This document shows positions 5,700 to 40,207 of a stretch of 40,207 nucleotides of DNA, in pieces; the first letter of the stretch is position 1, and each line of letters opens with the position of its first letter. The position numbers were made by a program, and so were the translations under genes. The notes under the pieces were generated by a model. It saw only the letters and a program-made list of their open reading frames with translations, did no database searches and had not been told where the DNA came from. Source of the DNA: Marinosulfonomonas sp. (lineage in GTDB: Bacteria > Pseudomonadota > Alphaproteobacteria > Rhodobacterales > Rhodobacteraceae); the NCBI GenBank assembly GCA_019090885.1, contig JAHRVC010000230.1:1-40207 (forward strand). The letters are read 5' to 3'.

Positions 5700-6571
5700 G
5701 TAGCACCGACGACATCCCAGAAAATGAGGACATCGAAGAAAGCGCGGCCCCGCTGATCGAGCATCTGGCCGAGTTGCGCAACAGGCTGATCCATTCAGCC
5801 ATCGCCTTTATCATCGGCATGGTAATCTGCTTTACGGTGTGGAACCCGATCTTCAACTTTCTGACCGACCCCCTGTGCAGCGCCATGGCCGAGCGCGGCC
5901 AGACGGATTGCGGACTGATCCTTATCAAGCTGCAGGAAGGGTTCTTTGTCGCGATCTCGATTTCGCTGTTTGGCGGTCTTGTGCTGTCGTTTCCTTATAT
6001 CGGCTATCAGTTGTGGCGTTTCGTGGCACCGGGGCTTTACCGGACCGAAAAGAACGCGTTTTTGCCGTTTCTGGCAGCCTCGCCGCTGATGTTCCTGCTG
6101 GGGGCGGCGTTTGCGTTTTACGTGGTTATGCCGCTGGCGTTTGATTTCTTTCTGGGCTTCCAGCAGCCCGGCGGCCCCTCGGGTTCAGAAGGTGAGGCTG
6201 TCGCGGCCACCGTTGATTTTCAAGGCTCGGTTCAGGAATACCTGCGCCTGTCGATCAAGTTCATCGTGGCCTTTGGCCTGTGCTTCCAACTGCCTGTTTT
6301 GCTGACCTTGATGGGCAAGGCGGGGCTGGTCAGTTCCGAGGGGCTGGGCAATGTGCGCAAATACGCAGTTGTCGCGATCCTGTGTCTGGCCGCGATAGTT
6401 ACGCCGCCGGACGTCATTACCCAGATCATCCTTTTTGTCGTCGTCTACGGCCTTTACGAAGTGTCGATCTGGCTGGTGCGGCGGGTTGAAAAAAAGCGCA
6501 ATGAACGTCTGCGGGCCGAAGGTTTGCTGGACGATGAAGAAGACGAAGACGAAAGTGACGCCAATGAATGA
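5696..6571 (+). CDS. tatC: Twin-arginine translocase subunit TatC
   Basis: [21 protein letters not shown]...; six-TM architecture; ATGA overlap with tatB. Confidence 0.96.
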
Positions 6572-7409
6572 CGCGGCCCTTGAACGTATAGCACAGGCGC
6601 TGGAACGGATTTCGCCCAGCCCGCTTGATGCGCCAGATTTCGCAGGCGCGGATGCGTTCGTTTGGCATGTAGAGCCGGATCGCCTGGAACCTGTGGCCAA
6701 GGTCAACCGGGTGGATCTGGCGCTGCTTGTGGGGATCAATCGTTCGCGCGATACGCTGATGGAAAACACCATGCAATTTGCCCGTGGTTTGCCCGCCAAT
6801 AACGCCCTGTTGTGGGGCGCGCGCGGGATGGGGAAATCTTCACTGGTGAAGGCTGTGCATGGCGCCGTTGTGGCCAGCGGCCAGCAGTTGAAACTGATCG
6901 AAGTGCAGCGCGAAGACCTGCCTTCTATCGGGCGCTTGCTGAACTTGCTGCGCCAAACAGATGAACGATTCTTGCTGTTTTGCGATGATCTGTCGTTTTC
7001 CCATGACGACGAACATTATAAGTCGCTTAAGGCAATTCTGGACGGCGGAATAGAAGGGCGGCCTGAAAACGTGGTGTTTTACGCCACGTCGAACCGGCGC
7101 CATCTGATGCCACGCGACATGATCGAAAACGAACGATCCTCGGCAATCAGCCCGTCCGAAGCGGTCGAGGAAAAGGTATCACTGTCGGATCGTTTTGGCC
7201 TGTGGTTGGGCTTTCATGCCTGCACGCAGGATGAATACCTTGAAATGATCGGCGGGTATTGCGCGGCTTACAACCTAAAGATCGACGCCGAAATACTGCG
7301 CGCGGAGGCCATCGAATGGCAGGCGACGCGCGGGTCGCGCTCGGGCCGGGTGGCTTGGCAGTATTTCGTCGATCTGGCCGGGCGAAAAGGCGTTCAACTG
7401 GTCAGCTGA
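6564..7409 (+). CDS. DUF815-type AAA ATPase
   Basis: [18 protein letters not shown] (Walker A), [10 protein letters not shown] (Walker B), [13 protein letters not shown] at 6564 overlaps the tatC end. Confidence 0.85.
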
Positions 7410-7493: not shown

Positions 7494-8645
7494 CTAGTTC
7501 AGCATTTCCGCCGGATCGACGCTTTCCAGCCCCTTGCGCACTTCAAAATGCAGAAAGCTTGGGTTTGCCGAACGTACCTTGGCGATCGTTTCACCACGTT
7601 TGACTTTGTCGCCTTTCTGGATCGTCAGCCGGTCAACACCTGCATAGACAGTCAGCAGGTTATTGGCGTGGCGCAAGACGATGATCGGCACTTGCTCGGT
7701 GTCACGGGTGATCGCGGCCACGGTGCCGTCGGCTGCGGCTTTAACGGCTGACCCGGCACTGGCGCCAATGTCGATGCCGTCATTTTTGCCCTTGGAATAT
7801 GCCCGGATGATATTGCCCGCCGCTGGCATCGCCAGAACGCCTTGATCTGTTCCACGGCTTCCCGATCCCAGATCAGGTGAAGGGGGGGCGGTGGGTTTGA
7901 CCAGCGATTCATTGGGAAGGGCGCGCGACGCACTTGGCGGCTCGGGCGTTGGTGATCCTTCGCCGGGGCCCGAAGGTTTGTCAGATGCAGGCGGCGCTGG
8001 TGCGGCAACCGGGATCAGCAACAGCTGGCCTTCGCGCACGGCCAGATCACTGCCCAGCCCGTTCCAATCTGCCAGTGATCGTGCCGACACATTGTAAAGG
8101 CGCGCAATGGAATAAGCCGTTTCGCCGCGCTCAACATGGTGACGAACTGGTTCGCCCTCGGCCTGTGAACTGGCCGCAGCAGGGCCGTTTGGACCGCCAG
8201 CACGATCAATGGCATTACCAGCAATTGAGGAAATATCCACACCACTGTTTGGCCCGATCGGGCCGCTGGTGATTGCGCCGGTTTGGGGCGAAGGCTCGGC
8301 TACGCGCCGGGGTAGGGCGATTACCTCATCCTGACGCAGCACCGCGCCGGGCGCGATGCCGTTGTAACTGGCCAGTTCGTCAGCCGGCAGGCCAACTCGG
8401 GTCGCGATATCGGCGATTGTGTCACCGCGCTGTGCAATGGCGACCTGATAATTTGGGTAGGACAGGATGCCACGATTGTCCGGGGCTGGCCGGTCGGCGG
8501 ATTGCTGGCGAACCGCGTCGGACGTGTCAAACCCATTGCCAAGGCCGCGCAGGTCAAAATCAAACCCGCCGTCACAAGCGCTTAGCAGGATCAGTGCGCT
8601 GCCCAGCAGGGCGGCGCGAATAGGGGATTGGCCAGTAATATACAT
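7494..8645 (-). CDS. NlpD-like lipoprotein: two LysM domains plus M23/LytM-like domain
   Basis: Lipobox LILLSAC; two LysM-like stretches (VAIAQRGDTIADIATRVGL..., HHVERGETAYSIARLYNV...); C-terminal M23-like fold. Confidence 0.85.
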   Translation of the reverse strand: MYITGQSPIRAALLGSALILLSACDGGFDFDLRGLGNGFDTSDAVRQQSADRPAPDNRGILSYPNYQVAIAQRGDTIADIATRVGLPADELASYNGIAPGAVLRQDEVIALPRRVAEPSPQTGAITSGPIGPNSGVDISSIAGNAIDRAGGPNGPAAASSQAEGEPVRHHVERGETAYSIARLYNVSARSLADWNGLGSDLAVREGQLLLIPVAAPAPPASDKPSGPGEGSPTPEPPSASRALPNESLVKPTAPPSPDLGSGSRGTDQGVLAMPAAGNIIRAYSKGKNDGIDIGASAGSAVKAAADGTVAAITRDTEQVPIIVLRHANNLLTVYAGVDRLTIQKGDKVKRGETIAKVRSANPSFLHFEVRKGLESVDPAEMLN

Positions 8646-32338: not shown

Positions 32339-32824
32339 ATGACCAAGGTCTCGTTAAGCCTGAACGGCAAGCCGGTGTCAGGCAAAGTAGAGGGCCGCAC
32401 CTTGCTGGCAGATTTTCTGCGTGAGGGGCAGGGGCTGACCGGCACCCATATCGGTTGCGACACCAGCCAGTGTGGCGCGTGCCTTGTGCATGTGAACGGC
32501 GATCTGGTGAAATCCTGCACGATGTTCGCGCTGGAAGCCGAAGGGTGCGAGGTGACCACAATCGAAGGTGTGGCCGCCGGTGATGGCACGCTGTCCGGCA
32601 TTCAGGACGCGTTTCGAGAACATCACGGGTTGCAATGCGGGTTCTGCACACCGGGTATGGTTATGTCGACGGCCGAGCTGCTAAAGATTAACCCAAAGCC
32701 GAGCGAGGCCGATATTCGCGATCATCTGGAAGGCAATATCTGCCGCTGCACCGGGTATCATAACATCATCAAAGCGATCATGGCCGCCAGCGGTCAGGAT
32801 GTTTCGGGCATTGCTGCTGAATAG
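32339..32824 (+). CDS. Molybdenum hydroxylase (CO dehydrogenase-like) 2Fe-2S subunit
   Basis: [18 protein letters not shown]...[12 protein letters not shown]...[15 protein letters not shown]: both 2Fe-2S cysteine motifs. Confidence 0.93.
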
Positions 32825-32852
32825 GCGCACCGCCCCGAGGAGGCTGTAAACC

Positions 32853-33641
32853 ATGTATAATTTCGAAATTGAAAAACCCACGACGATTGACGGCGCTGTT
32901 GCTGCGTTGGCGTCAGATGAGGCACAGGCACTGGCCGGTGGTCAGACCCTGATCCCAACCCTAAAGGCCCGTCTTGCGGCGCCGGAAAAGCTGATCTCGC
33001 TTGCCGGAATTACTGCCTTGCAGGGCATCAGCACCGATAAATCCGGGCGTGTCTGCATTGGCGCCGGGGTGACCCATACGGGCGTTACAAACGAGGCTGC
33101 GGCCTATCCGGCGCTGGCCGCTTTGGCCGGGCAAATCGGTGATGTTGCGGTGCGCAACCGGGGCACAATCGGCGGCTCTGTCGCCAATAATGATCCCTCG
33201 GCCTGTTACCCTGCGGCGGTGCTTGCCTCGGGCGCGGTGGTCGTGACCAACACCCGCGAAATCGCGGCGGATGATTTCTTTGACGGCATGTTCACCACGG
33301 CGCTGGACGAGGGCGAGATCGTCACCCAACTGCGTTTCCCGGTGCCTAAGCAGGCCGCTTACGTGAAATTCAAGCAACCCGCGTCGCGGTTTGCATTGGT
33401 CGGCGTGTTCGTGGCCCGGTTTGCGGACGGCGTGCGCGTGGCGGTGACCGGTGCCTCGGAAGAGGGCGTATTTCGCTGGTCTGAGGCGGAAAAGGCCCTG
33501 TCGGGCGATTTTTCGGCCAAAGCGATTGCCGGGCTAAGCGCCAGTGCAGACGGGCTGATCGGTGACGCCCATGGTTCGCCAGACTACCGCGCCCATCTGA
33601 TCGGCGTGTTGACAGCACGGGCGGTTCAGGCGGCGGGGTAG
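32853..33641 (+). CDS. Molybdenum hydroxylase (CO dehydrogenase-like) FAD-binding medium subunit
   Basis: MYNFEIEKPTTIDGAVAALASDEAQALAGGQTLIPTLKARLAAP...VAVRNRGTIGGSVANNDPSACYPAAVLA. Confidence 0.93.
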   Translation: MYNFEIEKPTTIDGAVAALASDEAQALAGGQTLIPTLKARLAAPEKLISLAGITALQGISTDKSGRVCIGAGVTHTGVTNEAAAYPALAALAGQIGDVAVRNRGTIGGSVANNDPSACYPAAVLASGAVVVTNTREIAADDFFDGMFTTALDEGEIVTQLRFPVPKQAAYVKFKQPASRFALVGVFVARFADGVRVAVTGASEEGVFRWSEAEKALSGDFSAKAIAGLSASADGLIGDAHGSPDYRAHLIGVLTARAVQAAG

Positions 33642-35661: not shown

Positions 35662-36117
35662 CTACGTGACCTCGTCGCGCAATTTGTCGATCATGGATCT
35701 AAACTCTGCAAGGTCAGGTAGCATTGCTGCGACCCGCTTGGAAGAGAACCGCGCTCCGAGTTCTTCGAATAGCGGTGCCATTTCGCTCAAGGCATCGTTG
35801 CAAAAATGCCTGCCGGCGGGCATTAACCAAACTTGTTTTGATCGCTTGTCTTCCGGATTGGGCCGCATATCAACGAACCCAAGCCTCTCCAGACCAGCGA
35901 GCGTATGTGTCATTGTCGTTTTGGCCACCTGAAAGGCACGTGAGAGCTCCAACGGGGTGGCGCCATCGCGAACCCGGATCAAATGGCTGACCACACCGAA
36001 ATGGGACACCAAAAGGCCGCTTGGCAGGCGCGCCTCAAGGAACGCCGTGCTGATTTGATTGATGATCCCCACTTCGTACATCAATGCGAAATAGGGATCA
36101 GGTTTGTCATTAACCAT
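35662..36117 (-). CDS. MarR-family transcriptional regulator
   Basis: LIRVRDGATPLELSRAFQVAKTTMTHTLAGLERLGFVDMRPNPEDKRSKQVWLMPAG; start overlaps the nitroreductase stop. Confidence 0.88.
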   Translation of the reverse strand: MVNDKPDPYFALMYEVGIINQISTAFLEARLPSGLLVSHFGVVSHLIRVRDGATPLELSRAFQVAKTTMTHTLAGLERLGFVDMRPNPEDKRSKQVWLMPAGRHFCNDALSEMAPLFEELGARFSSKRVAAMLPDLAEFRSMIDKLRDEVT

Positions 36118-37216
36118 GGGCGATACGCGTCTCCAGTGACCAGCGGGGGCTGGCATCAATTGCGGGACCGTATCCCAATCGCCCAAGCATTTGAACTGTT
36201 TCTCCGGGTGCTGCAAGAAATTCGTGGACCTGTGCATAGTGTGCAGACATTTCTGGATATTCTTGCAAGGCCTGACTGACAGGCTGCACCGATAACCCCA
36301 ACCCTGTTGCTGCGAGATGAAACCGTATCCAGTCCCGTCCTGCATTGATCTGATCAACCCGTGTGTTGCCAGTGCTGGTGATCACGCTGTAGGCATTGGT
36401 GGCGTTCATCGCCTTCTGGATCATGTCGCGCGCTTGTTTGAAACCAGTGCTGGTTGGATCAAGCTGATCTTCGCGGCGCAACATGCCCATGAGTTTCAGG
36501 CTTTCCAGAAATGGTCCGCCCAGCGCTATACCATCGGGGTTTGCTTCAATCTCGGCTTTGCCTAGCCGCATCAGATCAACGCTTTCTTTCATGATATGGG
36601 TGGTTGTCATCTCGATCTCCATTGCCGCCCACGTCAGGGTTCGCAGGGCAGAAACATCGGCCTGACTACTCTTGATCGTGGCAAATTCGGCTAGGGCCGT
36701 CAGCGCGTCAGCCTCAACCGGGCGATTTTCATAGCCAAGTCGGTTCGTATGGCGATCTAACACATGGGCAAACAGCGGATCTTTGATGCCGCCCTCGACA
36801 AGCTGGATCGCGGCAACAGGTCCATCATCATCCTCTGGGAAGAGATCGGTGTGTAACGCAAAGCCATCGTCAGCAGCGGCAAGGCGCAATAGTTCCAGAA
36901 AACACCCCATGCCGATGGTCATCTGACGGTCAAACGGGTCTGTATCTGGCAGGTTGCGTGCCTTGTCACGGTGAATGATCAGCAGGTCATCTCCCTGCAA
37001 TTCGGCGACCCATGGCTGCCTGTTATGTGGATTGGGTGCAAGGATCGCGTAGGAAAGCGCGCGCATCCTAGGTTCAGTATAGTGTCCGGCTGACGCCCAC
37101 GGGGCAAGTGCGCGGGTCGGGCGACGCGTTGCCAGAAAACCGCCAGCCGAAGCAGTCGCGGCCAGCACAACGCCACCGCCGATTAAGCCAATCATTTTAC
37201 GTCTTGAAAGTGTCAT
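36110..37216 (-). CDS. Nitroreductase-fold (Acg/FMN-type) protein with putative twin-arginine signal
   Basis: MTLSRRKMIGLIGGGVVLAATASAGGF signal-like N-terminus; YAILAPNPHNRQPWVAEL nitroreductase-like motif; start set at 37216. Confidence 0.75.
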   Translation of the reverse strand: MTLSRRKMIGLIGGGVVLAATASAGGFLATRRPTRALAPWASAGHYTEPRMRALSYAILAPNPHNRQPWVAELQGDDLLIIHRDKARNLPDTDPFDRQMTIGMGCFLELLRLAAADDGFALHTDLFPEDDDGPVAAIQLVEGGIKDPLFAHVLDRHTNRLGYENRPVEADALTALAEFATIKSSQADVSALRTLTWAAMEIEMTTTHIMKESVDLMRLGKAEIEANPDGIALGGPFLESLKLMGMLRREDQLDPTSTGFKQARDMIQKAMNATNAYSVITSTGNTRVDQINAGRDWIRFHLAATGLGLSVQPVSQALQEYPEMSAHYAQVHEFLAAPGETVQMLGRLGYGPAIDASPRWSLETRIAHG

Positions 37217-37226
37217 TGTACGATTC

Positions 37227-37272
37227 CATTTAGTTCGATATCGCAGTATATAGGGCGATATCGAACTAAATG
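37227..37272. promoter_or_regulatory. 18-bp perfect inverted repeat around the nitroreductase/marR promoter; candidate operator
   Basis: CATTTAGTTCGATATCGC (37227-37244) / spacer AGTATATAGG / GCGATATCGAACTAAATG (37255-37272). Confidence 0.8.
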
Positions 37273-37389
37273 TAAAGGGTAAAATTGAACTTTGTGTTGA
37301 TGAAAAATGCCAAACCGAAAGGAAAGTCGGAGGCGTCAAGTGTACCCGATGATCAGCTTGCGGTCTGCCGATACAACTCAAGGGCGTTC

Positions 37390-37827
37390 TTAGCCGTCTA
37401 TCATCATAATGCGCGCAGATACCGTCTTGAGCGTCTTCATTGTCACTTCGAGATCGCCTTGGCTGACTGTTTCAGTGACCTCGGCGACAAAATTCGTGGC
37501 AATCGGAATCAAAACCTCTTTTATTGCGTGGCCACGATCAGTAAGCGATACAACAACCCGCCGACCGTCCGTTTTGCCGGCGTTGCGCATTATCAGCCCC
37601 TTCTTTTCCATGCGTTCGAGCAGCCTTGTTGTGGTCGCTCTGTTGCGGGTTGTTGCATCTGCAATTTCACTCGGAGCGAGCCCATCTTTTTGCCATAGCA
37701 TGAGAAGCGCCGCCCATTCTTCGGCGGCGATAGGCTCTCCGGCGGCGGCAAAGCGCGATTGTATTTCTCTGCGGGACAGGAAGCTAAGCCGGTTCACCCA
37801 GAACAGGAGTATCTCTTCGTAGTTCAT
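37390..37827 (-). CDS. MarR-family transcriptional regulator
   Basis: LWQKDGLAPSEIADATTRNRATTTRLLERMEKKGLIMRNAGKTDGRRVVVSLTDRG. Confidence 0.9.
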   Translation of the reverse strand: MNYEEILLFWVNRLSFLSRREIQSRFAAAGEPIAAEEWAALLMLWQKDGLAPSEIADATTRNRATTTRLLERMEKKGLIMRNAGKTDGRRVVVSLTDRGHAIKEVLIPIATNFVAEVTETVSQGDLEVTMKTLKTVSARIMMIDG

Positions 37828-37852
37828 TACAAGCCCCTCTTTTGATGGTAGA

Positions 37853-37913
37853 TAATTGCACTATGCAATTAGATTGACAATACACAGATTCAGAATTAGT
37901 TGTATATTGCAAT
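37853..37913. promoter_or_regulatory. Divergent promoter region with MarR-type palindromes
   Basis: TAATTGCA-CTA-TGCAATTA (37853-37871), TTGACA -35-like box (37874-37879), ATTGCAAT palindrome (37906-37913). Confidence 0.65.
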
Positions 37914-37931
37914 TATATAGGAATACGTGGC

Positions 37932-38561
37932 ATGTTCAAATTTATCTTTGACTCTCACATGAATGACGATGTGATCGCATTTCACCCACCGCCGTGGGTC
38001 TCGATAGTCGCGGTTGTAACCCTTACGCTTACGCTCTTGCTGGCGGTCTTCATCTATCTTGGAATCTGGCTGGCTGTCATTTCAACGCTCTCGGCCACGA
38101 TCGCTTTTGTTCTCTGGCTGAGGGTTGGCTACGCCACCCCAATTAGCCGCCGCGCCTTACCCGGCCATATTCTCTTGATCATAGCACTGCTTGTTCATGG
38201 CGCGGAGCAGTTTGGAGGCGGGTATGCGGATGTCGTGGTCACGTCATTTCCCAATCTTGTACAGCCACCAAACATCATCACGGGTGCAAGCCTTGCACTG
38301 TCATTATCATTGAGCACCACGGTGATTTGGCTGCTTGGCGGCGCTATGGCATTCTACCATGTCCGTGTAGGTGGCTTCGTTATCTTATTGCTCGCCGTGT
38401 GGAGTTTGATGTTCCCGATCAGCCATCTAGCGATACCGCTACTTTCCGAGACAGCACCGTTTTGGGTGCCCGGCATGGCCAGCGGCATCGTTGTCTTCAT
38501 TCTCGCTTTGTCATCCTTGCGATTCACACTTAGCCAGTCACGTCGGAGAGCCTTATCATGA
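37932..38561 (+). CDS. HXXEE-like multi-TM protein, first paralogue
   Basis: Hydrophobic ORF; LLVHGAEQFGGGY and FPISHLAIPLLSETAPFWVPGMASG align by eye with motifs in the next gene. Confidence 0.55.
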   Translation: MFKFIFDSHMNDDVIAFHPPPWVSIVAVVTLTLTLLLAVFIYLGIWLAVISTLSATIAFVLWLRVGYATPISRRALPGHILLIIALLVHGAEQFGGGYADVVVTSFPNLVQPPNIITGASLALSLSLSTTVIWLLGGAMAFYHVRVGGFVILLLAVWSLMFPISHLAIPLLSETAPFWVPGMASGIVVFILALSSLRFTLSQSRRRALS

Positions 38562-39181
38562 CCACGAAAAACATCATTTACTTCATCATCGCTGCAACAA
38601 TATCAGTAGGCTTCACCACGCATCTTTTCCATACCGCTGGCTTACTACCCACATTAATCATTGGTTTCTGCGCTCTAGGCTGCGGCATCGTCTTTTGGTT
38701 GTTCACCAGTTTTAATCATCCTACCGACCCGGCCTTACTGCTTCCGCCATACCTCGTGACCGCAGCTATGTTGATGCTGCATATTGTGGAAGAACAAGTA
38801 TTTGAGTTCGGTCCCATGATTGCCGGAATTACGGCCGGCGTCTGGACCTCAGACCAATTTCTGTGGACCATCGGCTTCTTCTTCCCTGTCGTCTGGATTT
38901 TCGGCGCTTACGCGATCGCTCGACGGAATCCGCTAGGTGGTTTCGTGTCATGTTTCATTTTCACGGGCATGCTGCTTGGAGAGCCTACGCATCTGCTGAT
39001 CTTTCCGGTGCGTGAGGCCATCTTGCACGGTGGAGGATATGATTATTTTCCAGGAATGTGGACTGCGCTGGCACCATTGATCACCGGGCTATGGGGTATT
39101 GCGATTGTTGTCACTGAAGCCCGCAAAGACAAGCGTGCGGCATCCTTGAAAGGAGAAAAGGTATGGAGCTTGCAAAGCTAA
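38558..39181 (+). CDS. HXXEE-like multi-TM protein, second paralogue
   Basis: LMLHIVEEQVFEFGP (HxxEE), GEPTHLLIFPVREAILHGGGYDYFPGMWTALAPLITGLWG; ATGA overlap with the upstream gene. Confidence 0.62.
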   Translation: MTTKNIIYFIIAATISVGFTTHLFHTAGLLPTLIIGFCALGCGIVFWLFTSFNHPTDPALLLPPYLVTAAMLMLHIVEEQVFEFGPMIAGITAGVWTSDQFLWTIGFFFPVVWIFGAYAIARRNPLGGFVSCFIFTGMLLGEPTHLLIFPVREAILHGGGYDYFPGMWTALAPLITGLWGIAIVVTEARKDKRAASLKGEKVWSLQS

Positions 39182-39669
39182 CCGAACGATTCATGGGCAT
39201 GGATGATGCCACATGGGCCAAACACGCAAACCCATGGAGTGGATGGACGCGCATGCCAATCCTGCCGCTACTCAGCCTCGCAATTTGGAGCCGTGTTTGG
39301 CTTGGTTGGGGTGCGCTTTGGCTTATCTTAGCGGTTCTGGTCTGGACATGGATCAACCCGCGCCTGTTTGGGCCGCCGCCAAATGATCATGCATGGATGA
39401 CCAGAGCGGTTTTAGGTGAGCGGGTTTGGTTAGCAAGCAGTTCCCATCCGATCCCGCACCATCATGCGAGGGTCAGCCGGAACCTCAATATCGCGGCCGT
39501 GATCGGGGTCATCGTCCTCGCTTATGGACTTTGGCATCTTGACCCAGGATGGGCGATGGCCGGGCTTGTCATAACGGTGGGTGCAAAGCTTTGGTTTCTC
39601 GATCGCATGGTCTGGCTGCTGGCGGACATAACGGACGGTTCAGACCATGTTGGAGAAATTGCACCATGA
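39163..39669 (+). CDS. DUF6653-like small membrane protein
   Basis: MGMDDATWAKHANPWSGWTRMPILPLLSLAIWSRVWLGWGALWLILAVLVWTWINPRLFGPP; overlaps the upstream gene by 19 nt. Confidence 0.65.
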   Translation: MELAKLTERFMGMDDATWAKHANPWSGWTRMPILPLLSLAIWSRVWLGWGALWLILAVLVWTWINPRLFGPPPNDHAWMTRAVLGERVWLASSSHPIPHHHARVSRNLNIAAVIGVIVLAYGLWHLDPGWAMAGLVITVGAKLWFLDRMVWLLADITDGSDHVGEIAP

Positions 39670-39839
39670 CCCAAGCAGGTCTCAACAAGTCTGATGATCG
39701 CCATCATGTCGCTGTGGTTGGTGGTGGGTTTACTGGCATACAGTGCATTAAGTCCCTCAAGCGAGCCGATGTTCGGATATGTTCCGTGCAGAATGGAGCA
39801 ACCCGACTGCAACCCAAGCTGTGTTGGATGCCCTTATAA
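39666..39839 (+). pseudogene. Truncated NDH-2-like/FAD-dependent pyridine nucleotide oxidoreductase N-terminus (57 aa)
   Basis: MTQAGLNKSDDRHHVAVVGGGFTGIQCIKSLKRADVRI: dinucleotide-binding motif, then unrelated sequence and TAA; ATGA overlap with the DUF6653-like gene. Confidence 0.6.
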
Positions 39840-40058
39840 AGGGTGAACCCAAACGCGCACGCAGCTACTTTCGGTCCGGTCTACCGCTGCTATCGTTGCG
39901 GACGCTGCGGCGCGCGAAAAAAGGCTCAGGTTCGGACTTCCTGCGCAGTTTTCCGTCATTGCCATGGAACAATTTGATCAAGCGCAATATCCGCACTTTG
40001 TTCAACTGCCCGATATCCATTACAAGCAAGATAAGCTAATGAAACAGAAAGTAAGTCA

Positions 40059-40154
40059 GTGATCCGTAAATACAAAACCGAAGACACCGACGCCTTGATC
40101 ACTATCTGGGACAAGGCTGTCCGGGATCAGCGCCTATGGGTCCAAATAGCTTGA
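40059..40154 (+). pseudogene. Truncated GNAT acetyltransferase N-terminus (31 aa)
   Basis: VIRKYKTEDTDALITIWDKAVRDQRLWVQIA*: GNAT-like 'IRxYxxEDxDALIxIW' start, then stop. Confidence 0.45.
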
Positions 40155-40207
40155 TTTGATAAGGGAGTGTTTCTGGCTCATCGTAACCACTGAGGAGTGG
40201 ACGATGA

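Follow-up and report, generated by a model that had tools for sequence, protein, structure and literature searches.

The window, our term for the whole 40,207-nucleotide stretch analysed here, carries a conserved membrane operon, predicted to be MarR-controlled, that comprises one motif-complete and one degenerate HXXEE-like subunit. A scan that sampled one genome per species returned four further loci, all from Rhodobacteraceae: one in Litoreibacter meonggei (L004), two in uncultured Rhodobacteraceae (L005 and L007) and one in a Marinosulfonomonas MAG sharing its genus with the window (L006). A divergent marR gene, ORF1, ORF2 and a DUF6653 gene are present together in all four, so that the core stands in five Rhodobacteraceae genomes and the arrangement described in the first-pass annotation is not unique to this one. 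The features of the locus, in window coordinates, are the following.

36113-37216, minus strand: FMN-binding oxidoreductase of the Acg family, its N-terminus of twin-arginine type (NF047509, E 3.3e-69)
37390-37827, minus strand: marR1, MarR-family regulator of 145 aa, divergent from the operon, with a PF01047 match
37853-37871, no strand: putative operator 1, palindrome TAATTGCACTATGCAATTA, one mismatch to TARTTGCATNATGCAAYTA, kept in L004-L006
37897-37915, no strand: putative operator 2, palindrome TAGTTGTATATTGCAATTA, two mismatches to TARTTGCATNATGCAAYTA, found at equal spacing in L004-L006
37932-38561, plus strand: ORF1, multi-TM membrane protein of 209 aa, apparently a degenerate HXXEE-like paralogue (HGAEQ ... 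PISH ... PGM)
38558-39181, plus strand: ORF2, HXXEE-like multi-TM protein of 207 aa (H75xxE78E79, E142xxH145, Y163-F-P-G166)
39163-39669, plus strand: ORF3, DUF6653 membrane protein of 168 aa (PF20358, E 3.1e-43)
39666-39778, plus strand: 5' end of an NDH-2 gene, truncated by a deletion after about 37 codons; the DNA match to L004 stops there
39779-40039, plus strand: 3' remnant of a T4_deiodinase/AhpC-like gene, fused to the NDH-2 remnant; DNA 78% identical to L005 from position 7662

The end-to-start overlaps claimed for these reading frames are exact (ATGA at 38558-38561, 19 nucleotides at 39163-39181 and ATGA at 39666-39669), and the ATGA junction between ORF1 and ORF2 is retained in five of five Rhodobacteraceae loci, window included. 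The motifs claimed for the two proteins were likewise found, as HGAEQ, PISH and VPGM in ORF1 and as HIVEE, EPTH and FPGM in ORF2.

The proposed homology of ORF1 and ORF2 holds at the profile level: compared with ORF2 plus added ORF2 relatives, ORF1 reached an hhalign probability of 95% with a pairwise E of 4e-8 over 173 colinear columns. The orthologues alone gave a weak match (18%, E 0.0013), and the controls, for which eight further membrane proteins encoded in the window and the DUF6653 group were taken, stayed at or below 2%. A recent tandem duplication was not borne out. In a tree with weak support and long branches, ORF1 forms a separate clade on a branch of 3.3 changes beside other relatives and is not paired with ORF2, which suggests that the pair is old. 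Among 12 diverse ORF2 relatives, G43, W47, H75, E78, E79, F84, H145, F149, P150, Y163 and G166 are invariant and E142 nearly so. Every invariant residue is retained by ORF2. ORF1 of the window keeps the first histidine, the first glutamate and the later histidine, with glutamine in place of the second glutamate and proline at the position of E142; in L007 both histidines of ORF1 are gone. The HxxEE site of ORF1 thus reads HGAEQ or HGAEL, and FWAEL in L007, and the HxxEE motif itself is absent. Estimates of dN/dS, which are rough because several pairs are close to dS saturation or past it, were 0.03-0.06 for ORF2, 0.11-0.15 for ORF1, 0.14-0.16 for DUF6653 and 0.09-0.12 for MarR. Both ORF1 and ORF2 are under purifying selection, ORF2 being the most constrained and motif-complete subunit of the operon, and ORF1 looks like its degenerate partner. 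The genomes and plasmids searched gave no convincing relative of ORF1 beyond the operon (two partial matches, E ~0.007), and the viral contigs and phages searched yielded no relatives. A G192 match to ORF2 (E 5e-4) was dropped because it fell in a GC-rich region with no corresponding gene among the ORFs. A profile search of the PDB found no relative and a single chance match (E 1.8), and an AlphaFold2 model of ORF2 built from 5 sequences reached a pLDDT of 41.

Neither ORF1, ORF2 nor their orthologues matched PF13787, the HXXEE family of Pfam (curated cut-off 25 bits), and NCBIfam gave nothing useful for either protein. Two ORF2 relatives came close, both under the cut-off: L015 with 24.0 bits (E 6.7e-5) and L016 with 19.9 bits (E 1.3e-3). 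Against a small HXXEE alignment, ORF2 together with its relatives scored 82-90% in hhalign, and against five HXXEE proteins it scored 82-87% over about 110 columns; the ORF2 orthologues alone scored 3-5% and controls at most 2%. ORF2 carries the HxxEE motif as HIVEE, its H, E and E being invariant in the 12 relatives, and it shares with the PF13787 proteins HxxEE, a later xxH and PG motifs in equal order; the pair differs from them in scoring under the curated cut-off and in the missing second glutamate of ORF1. The HXXEE-like label given in the first-pass annotation is therefore tentatively supported at the profile level, by way of the relatives of ORF2, and fails as an assignment to the Pfam family, in which neither protein scores. 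On the grounds of the sub-cut-off relatives, the profile match and the agreeing motif order, we regard ORF1 and ORF2 as HXXEE-like proteins, judged by sequence, lying outside Pfam family membership.

ORF3 is a DUF6653 protein, as had been proposed (PF20358, 147.8 bits; cut-off 27), and a DUF6653 gene accompanies ORF1 and ORF2 in L004-L007. Of 199 genomes sampled from the family, 34 carry DUF6653, and within this sample it co-occurs with ORF2 in the genus of the window only. By eye, DUF6653 adjoins thioredoxin-like, Lon-N-like or exonuclease-like genes in many Rhodobacteraceae (L027, L028, L029, L034, L039, L043, L044), a setting that is unlike the present operon. The literature searched held five papers that name HXXEE and none that names DUF6653.

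The marR1 product matches PF01047 with 50 bits (Pfam cut-off 24.6), and orthologues are present in L004-L007 and in Leptospira (L008). The region between marR1 and ORF1 holds two 19-bp palindromes of the form TARTTGCATNATGCAAYTA flanking an invariant TTGAC. Both are kept in L004, L005 and L006, and L007 has diverged. The palindromes reported earlier in this shared promoter are thus confirmed as two matches, and none of 100 shuffles of the window holds two. All operator matches with at most two mismatches, in the genome of the window and in those of L004-L007, lie at this locus. A wide MarR regulon was accordingly rejected, no other close operator being found in the genomes searched, and the regulator appears to be a dedicated local one. 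The conserved operators support the claim of a MarR-controlled operon, and the simplest reading of these sequences is an autoregulated local MarR acting through putative palindromic operators. On plasmid lbp2 of Leptospira borgpetersenii (L008), a MarR gene 37% identical to marR1 is directly followed by an ORF2 homologue (hypothetical protein WP_002741272.1, 26-31% identical). A single two-mismatch palindrome, matched in none of 200 shuffles, lies directly upstream of this marR gene. The Leptospira pair resembles the window in its homologous MarR and ORF2 and in the matching operator before marR, but is co-directional and single-copy and has neither ORF1 nor DUF6653.

Downstream of DUF6653, the reading frame at 39666 runs for about 37 codons like the intact NDH-2 gene of L004 (440 aa; PF07992, PF22366) and then, at about 39779, joins the 3' part of a deiodinase-like gene. 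The complete FAD and NAD(H) domains of an NDH-2 are therefore missing from the window copy, and the 'NDH-2-like' ORF was rejected as a gene in its own right, being a deletion chimera with the deiodinase-like gene. An NDH-2 gene follows DUF6653 in L004 and L005, the L005 copy (6106-7221) having lost its GGGFGG motif for FAD binding to an in-frame deletion, with the remainder open; neither L006 nor L007 has one next to the core. The suggested NDH-2 redox partner of the complex did not hold up, given the remnant in the window, the loss of the FAD-binding part in L005 and the lack of such a gene beside the core in L006 and L007, and NDH-2 was rejected as a core operon partner. The deiodinase-like gene is intact in L005 (T4_deiodinase, PF00837, E 9e-16) and broken in L004. 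An acetyltransferase gene, which follows the operon in L004 and L005 too, is cut short in the window (40108-40207), and over its final 80-90 bases the contig matches IS3-family elements carried by Rhodobacteraceae plasmids. Judging from the chimera of the window, the NDH-2 deletion in L005, the broken deiodinase-like gene of L004 and the cut acetyltransferase, NDH-2 and the deiodinase-like gene were probably further members of the ancestral operon, and both are probably decaying in several lineages. The NDH-2 junction of the window may be an assembly error.

An Acg gene adjoins the core in three of the five loci (the window, L006 and L007). In L006 an 83% identical Acg gene follows DUF6653 and is accompanied by TTCGATATCG-type palindromes, and in L007 a 60% identical one lies within the operon, inserted between ORF2 and DUF6653. 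The Acg gene of the window forms with a second MarR gene (marR2, 35662-36117, minus strand) a unit apart, which has TTCGATATCG palindromes of its own. This Acg-marR2 unit recurs with CGATATCG palindromes in several Rhodobacteraceae (L072, L074-L077) and is widespread without the core. Acg is not required and not part of the core, and may be a functional associate of it. A large inverted repeat, TTAGTTCGATATCG ... CGATATCGAACTAA, lies at 37224-37275 upstream of the Acg-marR2 unit (35662-37275 in all). Elsewhere in the window, genes at 32339-33641 resemble those for two molybdenum hydroxylase subunits, the small (2Fe-2S) and the medium (FAD) one, and no gene for the large subunit adjoins them.

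As to function, the neighbourhood genes point to no substrate or inducer, and the nearest guide is MucF of Streptococcus mutans, which is annotated as HXXEE domain-containing (PMC9112991). MucF is a membrane deacylase that inactivates reutericyclin by removing its N-acyl chain, and 11 of 11 tested MucF homologues, from strains in which the biosynthetic cluster is missing, deacylate reutericyclin and were read by the authors as detoxifiers (PMC10161427). ORF2 is, like MucF, a small integral-membrane protein of HXXEE type, and the stand-alone MucF homologues are detoxifiers; the relationship is distant at best, ORF2 scoring under the PF13787 cut-off and being linked to MucF via the HXXEE family, not by direct alignment. 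Unlike MucF, the operon of the window has MarR control, a tandem partner in ORF1 and DUF6653. By this analogy we tentatively favour a MarR-repressed, translationally coupled membrane detoxification operon built around a hydrolase, which would most likely protect the cell, upon induction, from a toxic compound of fatty or membrane-active nature. An amphipathic organic compound would bind MarR and so release both operators. Within the membrane, ORF2, with ORF1 as a heteromer and with DUF6653, would then hydrolyse or otherwise inactivate either the inducing compound or a damaged membrane lipid, the H..EE/E..H cluster (H75, E78, E79, E142, H145) providing a general base or the ligands of a metal. 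NDH-2, the deiodinase-like protein and Acg would be optional redox accessories outside the core. We infer both the heteromer of ORF1 and ORF2 and the response to a small ligand, as the first-pass annotation did. MarR1 has no cysteine and one histidine among its 145 residues, which speaks against thiol switching and against a conventional metal site and fits an organic inducer better than a metal or a thiol. Against detoxification, the closer relatives of ORF2 lie in metal-efflux operons and not beside antibiotic genes.

These relatives raise the alternative that ORF2-type proteins use the conserved H/E cluster to bind a transition metal in the membrane or to move it there, the operon then being an accessory variant of metal resistance. 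ORF2 relatives stand beside MerR and an HMA-domain P-type ATPase in L014, and in L015 MerR is again a neighbour, together with a P-type-ATPase-like gene that has the DKTGTLT motif. On three mycobacterial plasmids the order is ArsR/SmtB, P-type ATPase, DUF3703 and the ORF2-like gene, and in Pelagibacterium a CDF transporter lies directly 3' of the ORF2-like gene; the vicinity of L016 holds no metal genes. The mycobacterial cassettes (L018 2989-7358, L021 2026-5486, L023 1960-6330) have a thioredoxin-domain gene next to them in L018 and L023, and their HXXEE-like membrane protein is annotated as hypothetical only. The ORF2-like proteins of all these cassettes (Mycobacteriaceae plasmids, Pelagibacterium, L014 and L015) belong to one family with ORF2 over its full length, with an hhalign probability of 99.8% and identical invariant residues, and H, E, E, E and H are good metal ligands. 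The cassettes differ from the operon in their regulators, which are of metal-sensor type (ArsR/SmtB or MerR), in their P-type ATPase or CDF neighbours, in being single-copy and in that no DUF6653 was seen. Conversely, the regulator is a MarR in the window, in its relatives and in Leptospira, there is no metal transporter in the cluster, and characterised HXXEE proteins are deacylases (PMC10161427). We consider metal handling somewhat unlikely, and rank the detoxifying hydrolase above it because the MarR has no evident metal site and the characterised HXXEE proteins that were found are enzymes. A metal-dependent hydrolase would reconcile the two.

Two further readings are less probable. ORF1 and ORF2 are small multi-TM proteins, one of them a degenerate paralogue, and MarR control is common among export systems; they could thus be a transporter or an immunity-type pair, exporting a compound or giving shelter from it with no chemistry involved. 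An enzyme fits better, given that the invariant charged residues are complete in one copy only and that HXXEE homologues have enzyme activity (PMC10161427), and we hold such a pair to be improbable. Equally poor prospects, or slightly poorer, attach to a membrane redox or respiratory complex in which the HXXEE-like proteins and DUF6653 would act with NDH-2, Acg and the deiodinase-like protein to counter stress from quinones or electrophiles. The order DUF6653, NDH-2 in L004 and L005, with the deiodinase-like gene next in L005, and the Acg flavoprotein at three loci speak for it, but NDH-2 is chimeric in the window, FAD-deficient in L005 and not beside the core in L006 and L007, and the Acg-marR2 unit of the window has palindromes of its own and occurs widely apart from the core.

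More broadly, and at the level of a doubtful proposal, HXXEE-type proteins may form a widespread superfamily of intramembrane hydrolases under MarR, TetR, ArsR and MerR regulators, of which this operon would be the first heteromeric form, with an active HXXEE subunit, an inactivated paralogue and a DUF6653 subunit. Five residues stand out for mutation. The locus ties HXXEE-like and DUF6653 proteins, two families whose functions are barely known or unknown, to a single dedicated regulator with its putative operator, and as this tie spans Rhodobacteraceae and in part Leptospira, the inducer could be screened for with a simple reporter. A single membrane-protein superfamily would also connect a MarR stress operon with metal-efflux cassettes and with an antibiotic deacylase.
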